The translations under genes and the position numbers were made by a program. From assembly GCA_012519705.1 (NCBI GenBank), contig JAAYPR010000034.1:1-64000 (forward strand): DNA of 64,000 bases, read 5' to 3'. The DNA is from Campylobacteraceae bacterium (GTDB taxonomy: Bacteria > Campylobacterota > Campylobacteria > Campylobacterales > Campylobacteraceae). Shown piece after piece: positions 14,162 to 44,712 of the stretch; positions within the stretch are counted from its first letter, which is position 1; every line of letters begins with the position of its first letter. The notes under the pieces are model-generated. The model saw nothing but the letters and a program-made list of their open reading frames with translations. It ran no database searches and was not told where the DNA came from.

Positions 14162-14203
14162 ACTAGATTGCCACGCCGGACAACGTCTAGCTTGCAATGA
14201 CGG
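14162..14203. repeat. Nested palindromic repeat, copy 1
   Basis: Reads ACTAGATTGCCACG ... GCAATGACG on the plus strand, the same outer arms as the copies at 21.2-21.8 kb and 44.0-44.4 kb. The inner hairpin is imperfect: on the minus strand GCTAGAC-GTT-GTCCGGC has one mismatch and one G-T pair. It sits between the converging lipoprotein and slt genes. Confidence 0.8.
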
Positions 14204-19316: not shown

Positions 19317-21149
19317 ATGTATTTCTACGAACTCTCTATTTTAGGGCTAAATTTAAAGCCCCTAACCTACTCATCTAAAACTAAGCTTGATGATTTTAGC
19401 TTGGTTTTAGTGAGTGTCTCAAACAAACCTAGAAAAGCTATAGTTTTAAATGAAGCTAAAAAACCAGAGTTTAAAACTATAGAGATTTTAGAAACTTTAG
19501 ATGAAAAGTTTAGTGAAACTCAGATAACTTTAGCAAATTTTATAAGTTACTACTATATCTGTCAACCATCAATCGCTTTTGATATATTTACTCCTTATAA
19601 ATTCAGAAACTTCATAGAAGCTAAATTTGATAAAACTCCAAATTTAAGCTCTAAACAAAAAGAGGCTTTTGAGTTTGCCAAATCACACAAAACAAGCTTG
19701 ATTTTTGGAGATACAGGAAGTGGAAAAAGCGAAATCTACATCTCACTCATAGTTGAAACTCTAAATTTAGGAAAACAAGCTCTTTTTTTAATGCCTGAAA
19801 TTTCCCTTACTCCTCAAATGGAAAAAAGACTCAAAGATTACTTTGGTGACTCAGTTGGGGTGTGGCACTCTAAAATCTCACCTAAGAAAAAAAGTGAGCT
19901 TTTAGAAAACTTTCAAAATGGTAAAATCAAGCTAATAGCAGGAGCTAGGTCAGCTCTATTTCTACCTTTTACAAACTTAGGGCTTATAGTTGTCGATGAA
20001 GAGCATGATGATAGCTATAAATCAAACCAAAAACCACGCTATAACGCTAGAGATTTAGCCATTTTCCTAGCTTCTAAATTTGATATAAAAGTTGTTTTAG
20101 GTTCAGCAACGCCCTCTTTAACCACCATAGAAAAACAGCCAACTTTTCGCTTAAAAGGAACATTTTTTGAAAGCAAAAAAGAGATAATTTATGATGAAAA
20201 TGAAACCTTTATCTCCCCACTTATCATAAAAGAGCTAAAAGAGTGTATGAATGAGGGAAAGCAAGCCATAATTTTCCTACCAACTAGAGCAAATTTCAAG
20301 TTTTTTTTATGTACAAAGTGTCACTCCATTGTAAAATGTCCATTTTGTAGCGTTGGGATGAGCTTTCATAAAAACAAAAATGCCCTGTCTTGTCACTACT
20401 GTGGATATAGCTCTTACTTTAAAACTCCGTGTGCTGTTTGTGGGGGCGAGGTTATGGAGCCAAAAAGAATGGGCACAAGCGAAGTTGCCGCTAAAATAAG
20501 TGAAGTTTTTAGTGACAAAGTTGTAGCTAAATTTGATAGAGATGAGATAACCACTCAAAGAAAGCTAGTTGCCACTCTAAAAGAGTTCAATGACGCTAAA
20601 ATTGACATCTTGGTTGGAACACAGATGCTTAGCAAAGGACATGACTATCACAACGTCTCACTTGCTATCATCATGGGGATTGACAACTCTTTGGGTTACG
20701 CTGATTATAAAGCTAGGGAAAAAACTTTGGCATTAGCAATGCAGTTAAGTGGCAGAACTGGGCGAAGCGGAAAAGGAAAAGTTATAATCCAAACTTTACA
20801 AAAAGAGTTTTTTAATGAGTTTATGGGAAATTATGACGAGTTTATAAAAGATGAGCTTTTTTTAAGAGAGCCTTTATATCCGCCATTTACTAGGCTTTTA
20901 AGAGTGCTAATCTCTCATAAAAATGAAAAAAATGCTGTTAGCTTGATGCACTCTTGCCTAGACAAACTAAAAACCGCTAAAAACATCGAAATCATCGGCT
21001 ACGGCAAAGCAAATATAGAGTATATCGCCTCTAAATTTCGCTATGAAATCTTAATCCGCTCAACATCTCATAACGCACTGATTTTAGCTGGCAAGATGTG
21101 CGATATGCCAAATGTTGAGGTTGATATGGATGCGGTAAGTTTTAGTTAA
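19317..21149 (+). CDS. priA: Primosomal protein N' (replication restart helicase PriA)
   Basis: A superfamily 2 helicase that reloads the replisome at collapsed forks. Walker A GDTGSGKSE is at 131-139, the DEAH-type box is VDEEHDD, and motif III GSATPS follows. An eight-cysteine zinc domain (CTKCH, CPFC, CHYC, CAVC) sits at about 335-380, and the C-terminal helicase motifs VGTQMLSKGHDY and SGRTGRSGKG are intact. At 610 aa it is about 120 residues shorter than E. coli PriA, with a reduced N-terminal DNA-binding region, as is usual in Campylobacterota. It is convergent with queC across a repeat-rich gap. Confidence 0.95.
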   Translation: MYFYELSILGLNLKPLTYSSKTKLDDFSLVLVSVSNKPRKAIVLNEAKKPEFKTIEILETLDEKFSETQITLANFISYYYICQPSIAFDIFTPYKFRNFIEAKFDKTPNLSSKQKEAFEFAKSHKTSLIFGDTGSGKSEIYISLIVETLNLGKQALFLMPEISLTPQMEKRLKDYFGDSVGVWHSKISPKKKSELLENFQNGKIKLIAGARSALFLPFTNLGLIVVDEEHDDSYKSNQKPRYNARDLAIFLASKFDIKVVLGSATPSLTTIEKQPTFRLKGTFFESKKEIIYDENETFISPLIIKELKECMNEGKQAIIFLPTRANFKFFLCTKCHSIVKCPFCSVGMSFHKNKNALSCHYCGYSSYFKTPCAVCGGEVMEPKRMGTSEVAAKISEVFSDKVVAKFDRDEITTQRKLVATLKEFNDAKIDILVGTQMLSKGHDYHNVSLAIIMGIDNSLGYADYKAREKTLALAMQLSGRTGRSGKGKVIIQTLQKEFFNEFMGNYDEFIKDELFLREPLYPPFTRLLRVLISHKNEKNAVSLMHSCLDKLKTAKNIEIIGYGKANIEYIASKFRYEILIRSTSHNALILAGKMCDMPNVEVDMDAVSFS

Positions 21150-21198
21150 ATTTAAAATCTTATCATCAAAACAGGTACTAGGAAAAATACTCTATAAC

Positions 21199-21240
21199 GG
21201 TCATTGCGAGACGGACGAAGTCCGGCGTGGCAATCTAGAT
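21199..21240. repeat. Nested palindromic repeat, copy 2
   Basis: Outer arms GTCATTGCGAG and CGTGGCAATCTAGAT enclose an inner perfect hairpin CGGAC-GAA-GTCCG (21212-21224). Plus orientation. Confidence 0.85.
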
Positions 21241-21310
21241 ATTGAATTTAGAAAGTGACTTTTAGCAAATTTAGTTTTATAAATTTCTTACAACAATATA
21301 TCTACTAACG

Positions 21311-21351
21311 TCGTCATTGCGAGATTTTCGTAGAAAATCATGGCAATCCAT
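21311..21351. repeat. Nested palindromic repeat, copy 3
   Basis: Outer arms CGTCATTGCGAG and ATGGCAATCCAT enclose the inner hairpin GATTTTC-GTA-GAAAATC (21323-21339), a 7-bp perfect stem unrelated in sequence to copy 2. Plus orientation. Confidence 0.85.
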
Positions 21352-21495
21352 TTGGATAAATTTTGAGTTAAATTTAAGTGTTTTTTTATTAAATCTAGAG
21401 TTAAGATTTTGGTTAAATTTAAAGGTTTTTCTTTTGTGAATTTCTTTATAAAATTTTCTTAAGTAAAAAACTTATAAATTATTTAAAATGTCTTT

Positions 21496-21535
21496 GATGG
21501 GTTGCTTCGTTTGTTTCACAAACTCGCAATGACGG
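21496..21535. repeat. Nested palindromic repeat, copy 4
   Basis: Minus orientation: GGGTTGCTTC ... CTCGCAATGACGG on the plus strand, with inner hairpin GTTTGT-TTC-ACAAAC (21509-21523), i.e. a GAA loop when read on the minus strand. Confidence 0.85.
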
Positions 21536-21639
21536 AGTGGAGCGTTTTTTAGTAAATTTGGTTTTAAAGGTTTGTTTTTAAATTTATAGATAAAAATTTT
21601 CTTAAATAGAAATCTTATAAATTTATCAAGCTTTCATTT

Positions 21640-21678
21640 GATGGATTGCTTCGTCGCTTTGCTCCTCGCAATGACGAC
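21640..21678. repeat. Nested palindromic repeat, copy 5
   Basis: Minus orientation: GGATTGCTTCGTCGC ... CTCGCAATGACGAC. The inner stem is short and imperfect around an AAA/TTT loop, the weakest of the series. Confidence 0.75.
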
Positions 21679-21750
21679 TCTGGTGGATTTGGTGAACTTA
21701 GGTTTTAGGTTTTTCTGAATTTGGCTTTAAGTCTCTTTTCAAGTTCAAAG

Positions 21751-21789
21751 TCTAGATTGCCACGGCATTTTTAATGCCTAGCAACGACT
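21751..21789. repeat. Nested palindromic repeat, copy 6
   Basis: Minus orientation: TCTAGATTGCCACG ... TAGCAACGACT, with inner hairpin GGCATT-TTT-AATGCC (21764-21778). The distal arm has drifted (GCAACGAC for GCAATGAC). Confidence 0.8.
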
Positions 21790-21864
21790 GATAAAGGTAA
21801 ATTTATAATGACAGATGGAAAACATAAATTTTAAAACACAATAAATATATCAAAAAGTAACTAT

Positions 21865-22530
21865 TTAAACATAAGGAATTTTATCCTCTACTCCAGCTTC
21901 TTTAAAACCTTCTAGTCTTAATCTACAGCTATCACAAAGCCCGCACGCTTTGTCGCTTCTCTCATAGCAACTCCAAGTTTTATGAAGTGGGACGTTTAAC
22001 TCAACTGCTTTTTTAACGATTTCTGCCTTGCTTAAATCAACCAAAGGCGTAACAATTTTACTCTTTTTAACTCTACCTAAATTTATAGAGTTTTCCATAG
22101 AGTTTATAAACTCATTTGTGCAGTCAGGATACCCACTACTACTCTCAACTCCGATATAGATGGCTTCACAACTCTCTTTTTCAGCTAGAGCCGCTGCGAT
22201 ACTTAGAAAGATGCCATTTCTAAAAGGAACATAAGTTATAGGAACTTCTTTTTTCATACCTGTATCGCCAACTCCGCTTTTTGGAACTTCCAAACTCATA
22301 TCAGTTAAAGCATTTGCCCCGATTTGCGAGATAAAACTAACATCTATTATCTCACGTTCTAAAACTCCTAAATCATCACAAATCTCGTTAAAACACTCTC
22401 TTTCTTTTTCCATAGTTCGCTGGTTGTAGTCAAAATGAAGTGCGACTATCTCATAGCCATTATTTTTAGCCATATATGCACAAAGAGTGCTATCCATCCC
22501 GCCACTTATGATACAGAGTGCTTTTTTCAT
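21865..22530 (-). CDS. queC: 7-cyano-7-deazaguanine synthase
   Basis: Converts 7-carboxy-7-deazaguanine to preQ0 with ATP and ammonia, a step in queuosine synthesis for tRNA. The ATP pyrophosphatase loop SGGMDS is at 9-14. The C-terminal zinc site is present (C-x-8-CGLCDSC pattern in [16 protein letters not shown]), and the SYVPFRN-type motif appears as TYVPFRNG. The length of 221 aa is normal. It is divergent from ybeY with a 59-bp gap and convergent with priA. No preQ1 riboswitch is evident in the short leader. Confidence 0.95.
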
Positions 22531-44090: not shown

Positions 44091-44204
44091 CGTCATTGCG
44101 AGATTTACGAAGTAAATCGTGGCGTCTGCAGCAAAGCGTCTCGGCAGTCTTTAGTTGCGAGGCGAAGCCGTGGCAATCTGAGTGCGAAGCACGAAGTAAA
44201 ATCT
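44091..44204. repeat. Nested palindromic repeats, copy 8 (composite)
   Basis: Starts CGTCATTGCGAG with inner hairpin GATTTAC-GAA-GTAAATC, loses the far arm (GTGGCGTCTGC), then resumes as TTGCGAGGC-GAA-GCCGTGGCAATCTGAG and a third small hairpin GTGC-GAA-GCAC. At least two fused members. Confidence 0.7.
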
Positions 44205-44257: not shown

Positions 44258-44295
44258 CGTCACTCCGAGTTTGTGAAACAAACGAAGCAATCTAA
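44258..44295. repeat. Nested palindromic repeat, copy 9
   Basis: GTCACTCCGAG ... CGAAGCAATCTAA with a perfect inner hairpin GTTTGT-GAA-ACAAAC (44269-44283), the same inner stem as copy 4. The left arm has mutated (ACTCC for ATTGC), so only the inner stem still pairs. Confidence 0.8.
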
Positions 44296-44391: not shown

Positions 44392-44432
44392 ACTAGATTG
44401 CCGCGCTTGCTAACGCAAGCTCGCAATGACGC
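44392..44432. repeat. Nested palindromic repeat, copy 10, inside the yjbR 3' end
   Basis: ACTAGATTGCCGCG ... CTCGCAATGACGC with a perfect inner hairpin GCTTGC-TAAC-GCAAGC (44405-44420). It supplies the last codons and the stop of the truncated gene on the minus strand. Confidence 0.85.
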
Positions 44433-44712
44433 ATGAAGAGTGCTTTTTATTCATATGATAAGCTGGGAAAATCTCTTTGCTATCTATCAAAATATTTACT
44501 AAGTTTGGGTCGCATTTTAAATTAAGTATAAGTTTTTTACCACCTTCAAGCCCAAACTTAGAAGCGTCTAAATCCATCAAGAGAGCAAGCCATTTCTCAC
44601 TTCTTTTTTCTCTAAAAATAGCATTTGTAGGAGTTGTAGCAAATGGAAACTCAGGTTTTACACTAAAATTTTTATCTATAAATTTATAAATTTCAGCTCT
44701 TTTTATACTCAT
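44410..44712 (-). pseudogene. MmcQ/YjbR family protein, 3' end replaced by a palindromic repeat
   Basis: 100 aa. The body is typical of the small MmcQ/YjbR (CyaY-like fold) proteins: EKWLALLMDLD, LILNLKCDP, then FPAYHMNKKH. In the family a Trp and about 15-25 more residues follow HMNKKH. Here the frame runs into copy 10 of the palindromic repeat and ends SSCVIASLR, the reading of the repeat itself, stopping in its inner loop. The lost C-terminal strands make function doubtful. These proteins are thought to bind DNA but are poorly known. No remnant of the missing end is seen beyond the repeat. Confidence 0.75.

Follow-up and report, generated by a model that had tools for sequence, protein, structure and literature searches.

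A palindromic repeat family resembling CGTC-tagged REPs, with hypervariable inner hairpins that appear to be exchanged as whole blocks at orthologous sites

The window, i.e. the whole stretch of 64,000 nucleotides that was analysed, contains an intergenic array of 715 bp (21150..21864) between the convergent genes priA (19317-21149, + strand) and queC (21865-22530, - strand). Five copies of a palindromic repeat are found in this array. Two of them lie on the + strand: the copy at 21199..21235 consists of the arm GTCATTGCGAG, the inner palindrome ACGGAC-GAA-GTCCGG, the connector CGTG and the arm GCAATC, and the copy at 21312..21348 has the inner ATTTTC-GTA-GAAAAT and the connector CATG. The - strand carries a copy at 21500..21534 (inner TTTGT-GAA-ACAAA, connector CGAA), a cosmopolitan-type copy at 21644..21676 (inner GA-GC-AAA-GC-GA with tandem G.A pairs, connector CGAA) and a degenerate copy at 21755..21789 (arm GTCGTTGCTAG, inner GCATT-AAA-AATGC). 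In relatives the priA-queC gap measures about 12 bp (G001), 34 bp (G013), 203 bp (G006) or 5 bp (G008/G009); much of the surplus length of this gap (715 bp versus about 5-200 bp) is due to the repeats.

Four further copies lie elsewhere in the window. Degenerate copies are located at 14166..14202 (- strand, arm GTCATTGCAAG, inner CTAGAC-GTT-GTCCGG) and at 44258..44292 (+ strand, arm GTCACTCCGAG, inner TTTGT-GAA-ACAAA). The copy at 44396..44431 (- strand, inner CTTGC-GTTA-GCAAG) supplies the last residues, VIASLR, and the stop codon of a 100-aa ORF (44410-44712, - strand). A chimeric copy at 44091..44123 (+ strand) combines an intact 5' arm and the hairpin GATTTAC-GAA-GTAAATC with GTCTGCAGC... 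in place of the 3' arm. The same chimera (window 44091-44160) recurs at L004, L024, L037, L042 and L048 of the source genome; in such copies the 3' arm is swapped for GTCTGCAGC(A/G)AAGCGTCTCGGCAGT, itself a recurring repeat, while the 5' arm and hairpin are intact. This brings the window to nine copies, with additional fragments near 44.03 and 44.15 kb. The 'at least ten' of the earlier note was roughly right, and the six inner stems it quoted are all present in the sequence.

A window search with the bare 11-mer and 2 mismatches gave 15 matches versus 7.95 expected. This is a modest excess over chance; the decisive evidence for a family is the genome-wide count of exact GTCATTGCGAG arms, which amounts to 149 in the 1.72-Mb genome versus 0 for the reversed control, with both strands equally represented. 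Copies were parsed from genome stretches covering 145 of the 149 exact arms. They are dispersed and intergenic, and they share the layout (C)GTCATTGCGAG, a self-complementary inner, CG followed by TG or AA, GCAAT, and C[CT]A, the constant arms being about 11 and 10 nt long. The predicted fold of the single-stranded DNA comprises an outer stem of 5 bp (ATTGC/GCAAT), a small internal loop with GA opposite GTG or GAA, a constant G-C pair and a variable inner stem of 5-10 bp closed by a loop of 3-4 nt. For the cosmopolitan GGAGCGAAGCGAC type the nested fold was not predicted under standard energy rules, which treat tandem G.A poorly. No discussion of the exact repeat arm was found in the literature searched.

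The inner hairpins are highly diverse, with 64-66 distinct inners among 116-119 complete copies of the source genome and 194 across five related genomes, and an explanation by a few clonal copies fails. Their self-complementarity is far above chance. When 5' and 3' halves were reassigned among copies of equal length, Watson-Crick cells in the distinct inners of the source genome fell from 85.5% to a shuffled mean of 57.5% (maximum 63.5%); for the pooled Campylobacterales, pairing was 81% versus 54% (maximum 61%). Two gap-free alignments of distinct inners were prepared, A1 with 52 sequences of 33 nt and A2 with 23 sequences of 35 nt. Paired cells made up 93-98% versus 77-80% in shuffles, and the covariation score was 0.417 for A1 (shuffled mean 0.121) and 0.431 for A2 (shuffled mean 0.089); for each of these measures values as high were reached in 0 of 500 shuffles. 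The covariation signal was lost once partners were slid by 1-3 columns, and two-sided changes were seen at all 11 variable inner pairs of A1 and A2. It is important to note that the outer arms are fixed by the search pattern and are uninformative in this test. The notion, put forward from the initial reading of the window, that inner pairing is kept while the sequence changes is hence borne out by significant inner-stem covariation.

Three features point to DNA as the folded molecule, and to the strand beginning with GTCATTGCGAG: GNA/GNNA loops abound, tandem G.A mismatches are confined to one strand, and few G.T wobbles occur. Among 84 perfect distinct stems, cGNNAg was found in 21 of 30 tetraloops and cGNAg in 24 of 54 triloops, versus only 7 GNRA loops. 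GNA/GNNA loops are reported to render DNA mini-hairpins extraordinarily stable and nuclease-resistant, and d(GCGAAGC) itself lies within the common variant GGAGCGAAGCGAC (PMC4686876). There are 34 tandem 5'-GA/3'-AG mismatches and 0 of the complementary kind; G.T cells number 16 and A.C cells 10, compared with 906 Watson-Crick cells. These observations support the option of the earlier note that structure is selected, specifically at the DNA level, and we infer that selection acts on the folding of the DNA itself. On the other hand, orientation tracks transcription (49:24 in favour of the transcribed direction in tandem gene contexts) and divergent gaps are avoided, which leaves room for an RNA role: the 62 repeat-bearing gaps are 26 convergent, 35 tandem and 1 divergent, whereas all gaps of these stretches taken together give 33/122/18.

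The CGTC-tagged REP superfamily, as the text of Di Nocera, De Gregorio and Rocco 2013 describes it (PMC3733652; with Rickettsia RPE-4/RPE-6 and Neisseria dRS3 among its members), accommodates the element, except for the nested, hypervariable inner hairpin. The assignment is based on the CGTC tag, the AT-starting stem, the C[CT]A tail and the heterotypic inverted dimers. CGTC is present in 93 of 116 complete copies (80%) and TGTC in 6; in the text of that paper the tag is a terminal CGTC, with TGTC and CCTC as variants (PMC3733652). The stem starts with complementary A/T (ATTGC/GCAAT outer stem), partly by construction, as it forms part of the search pattern. The unpaired tail reads CTA in 61 and CCA in 53 of the 116 copies (C[CT]A, 98%), in keeping with the CCA tail. 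Seventeen +- neighbour pairs form outward-tagged dimers, identical inners being found in 0 of 17; ++ neighbour pairs are also common (14). In the source-genome stretches these dimers tend to unite an AA-type with a TG-type connector (GAAGCAATC vs GTGGCAATC), as seen in 13 of 17. According to the same text, the two groups further share an intergenic 3' location, inverted and often hetero-dimeric arrangement, occurrence in many phyla, and the lack of a known dedicated transposase (PMC3733652). Going by its text descriptions, however, the published families 1-4 have a stem of 8-9 bp and a loop of 4-5 nt, unlike the 5-bp outer stem, G.A-type internal loop and variable 5-10 bp inner hairpin of the repeat described here. 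Campylobacter is not named in the main text of PMC3733652, and Figure 2 of that paper possibly holds a precedent for the nested architecture.

Other known systems are similar in part. GTAG REPs and REPINs, which are mobilised by RAYT (TnpA_REP), are likewise short strand-asymmetric palindromes with high copy number, inverted pairs and sporadic amplification, but the repeat studied here lacks the GTAG tag (its flanks are CGTC and C[CT]A), its inner stem is variable, and the source genome and most repeat-rich relatives have no Y1 transposase. Fungal and sponge mitochondrial repetitive or double-hairpin elements (PMC2800124) likewise have the look of mobile hairpin repeats between genes, with no enzyme known for them; in the sponge elements the stems are conserved and the loops vary, whereas here the inner stems vary.

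The distribution of the family is sporadic. Five of the 14 species of the source genus have 46-160 exact arms and the others 0-5, and among 298 genomes of the phylum a few contain hundreds (813, 279, 209) and many 0-2. Complete copies occur, among the matches listed, in alphaproteobacteria, Bacteroidota, Chloroflexota, Rickettsia, Legionellales, candidate phyla and others, so the suspicion that the family is widespread proved correct. Dozens of Helicobacter cinaedi prophage records have a repeat-like copy inside or beside the prophage (e.g. BK070065.1:5705-5744), all alike among the matches listed; the family may spread horizontally by way of prophages. Loss of the hairpin nuclease SbcCD was considered as the cause of the bursts and rejected: SbcD gave no match over the cut-off in 38 of 38 Campylobacterales, repeat-rich or repeat-free, and does not discriminate the two groups. 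SbcD scores below the cut-off may mean that hairpins are tolerable in the order, without explaining the bursts.

To see how inner hairpins change at orthologous sites, two near-relative pairs were compared: G008 with G009, which share about 93-97% identity at most loci, and G010 with G011 (about 93-95%). In 6 of about 18 clean orthologous comparisons the whole inner hairpin was replaced between unchanged arms and flanks, a proportion that is not a rate, as the sites were picked where both genomes carried copies. Block exchange was seen in copy 2 of L209/L228 (TGAGCGTTAGCGA vs ACGGCAACGCCGT), at L206/L219, in copy 1 of L269/L300, at L241/L242 and at L258/L286, where two adjacent copies were both exchanged and the intervening spacer is nearly identical; L268/L298 is a weaker additional case. 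Several exchanged-in hairpins are found elsewhere in the same genome (TGAGCGTTAGCGA in 5 copies, GCGATTTATCGC in 3, AAAACGAAGTTTT in 8), others have no second copy among the stretches examined. No change, or a change of one base, was seen in the inner hairpin at L172/L234, L179/L215 (two copies), L190/L221, L195/L214, L203/L232, L269/L300 (two copies), L270/L305 and L266/L292, and copy 1 of L209/L228 differs in the loop only (GAAA vs GTTA). At L183/L211 the loop is exactly inverted (TTTTTTC-GCA-GAAAAAA vs TTTTTTC-TGC-GAAAAAA) with arms and left flank conserved. The arms also recombine as short direct repeats, as seen from a 38-bp difference at L179/L215 and a duplicated 67-bp unit at L292/L266. 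Further palindromic families lie alongside in the L171-L236 flanks of G008/G009; examples are GTCATTCTGAGCG...GAAGAATCT and another, longer palindrome centred on the region of AAGATAAGACTTATTT.

From the block exchanges at orthologous sites it appears that pairing persists mainly through exchange, and not through base-by-base compensation. To our knowledge, it has not been observed before that whole inner hairpins are exchanged in place. The earlier proposal that one arm is rewritten from the other does not hold as the main route, as both arms of the inner stem and the loop are replaced together; still, the loop inversion at L183/L211 carries the signature of template switching at a hairpin and, as far as sequence comparison can tell, shows that it does occur, in one case. 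Loop inversion has been described as resulting when a polymerase switches between the arms of an inverted repeat (PMC8604942), template switching is known to create and repair stems (PMC8794818), and arm homogenisation and spacer inversion are described template-switch products (PMC8604942, PMC8794818). Quasipalindrome template-switch mutations resemble the changes in the repeats in that they give perfect stems, alter several bases at once and invert loops, but they act inside one hairpin, whereas most changes here swap the whole hairpin.

On balance we lean towards the view that the family represents CGTC-tagged REP-like palindromes forming a nested single-stranded DNA hairpin, with exchange by arm-mediated template switching or short gene conversion. 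The strand CGTCATTGCGAG would fold into a nested hairpin, in which the ATTGC/GCAAT stem and the G.A-rich internal loop are constant and the mini-hairpin is variable, and the constant arms would serve as short homologies. A nascent end held up at the hairpin during replication or repair could switch via the arms to another dispersed copy, copy the donor's whole inner hairpin and then return. Exchanged as intact blocks, inner hairpins would remain paired while their sequence changes; a switch within one hairpin would invert the loop and could restore the stem. Hairpins with cGNAg and cGNNAg loops, which fold well on this strand, would be the ones to persist. The most likely route runs through the arms, by replicative template switching or by gene conversion over short tracts, because block exchange calls for the constant arms and for nothing else that is visible. 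A point against this route is that homologies of about 10 nt are shorter than RecA normally uses. Copies must also insert to spread, yet an automatic scan found no clean empty sites or target duplications, and the best insertion candidate (L176/L311) is not clean.

The main rival, above all for G010/G011, is differential loss, in which ancestral tandem copies with different inners were reduced to one per lineage by arm-arm deletions. In that pair, with its tandem units of copies, a duplication and later losses that differ between the lineages could look like an exchange. The 38-bp and 67-bp length differences noted above, as well as the many G011 copies spaced in tandem at roughly 67 bp, agree with such a process. 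However, L258/L286 would require two losses, as both adjacent hairpins differ while the spacer is kept, and L209/L228 and L206/L219 lie outside tandem arrays of like units. We consider differential loss unlikely. Next in order, and somewhat less probable, is a hidden strand-specific HUH transposase (RAYT or IS200-IS605-like) acting in trans, whereby an inserting copy replaces the old one. TnpA_REP binds the folded top strand only and requires loop or bulge features (PMC8266576); the strand-specific hairpins, tetranucleotide tag and internal irregularity of the repeat resemble its substrates, and bursts such as 813 exact copies in one genome, next to about 0 in many relatives, would be in line with its activity. 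Nevertheless, the Y1 transposase domain (Y1_Tnp, PF01797), for which the earlier note had suggested looking, gave 0 matches in the source genome and was present in 2 of 20 repeat-rich Campylobacterales, which are not the richest. Moreover, CGTC repeats have already been reported, in the text of PMC3733652, without a dedicated transposase. A RAYT/Y1 transposase was accordingly rejected as the mover.

Two further readings seem more doubtful still. The repeats might be RNA elements (3'-UTR stabilisers or terminators) whose covariation is ordinary RNA compensatory evolution; their position downstream of genes and their orientation with transcription would suit such a function. Yet G.T is rare and not clearly commoner than A.C, the tetraloops are GNNA and not GNRA, and whole blocks are replaced in about a third of the clean orthologous comparisons. 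A curated RNA family was rejected, as no Rfam family scored above the gathering score in the 64-kb window. Equally improbable in our estimation, the arms could be recognised by a candidate single-strand recombinase, or by enzymes of the replication fork, through which dispersed copies exchange their hairpin cassettes and a large hypervariable repertoire is maintained in the genome; folded integron attC sites may be compared with this in spirit.

Students of RNA and DNA evolution have long asked how palindromes can change in sequence and still pair. The repeats offer many natural replicates in species about 5% apart, in which pairing appears to be kept mainly by whole-hairpin exchange, with little sign of the wobble intermediates expected under step-by-step compensation. 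Found in many phyla and lacking any known transposase, the family provides a testable system for the enzyme-poor spread of folded DNA.
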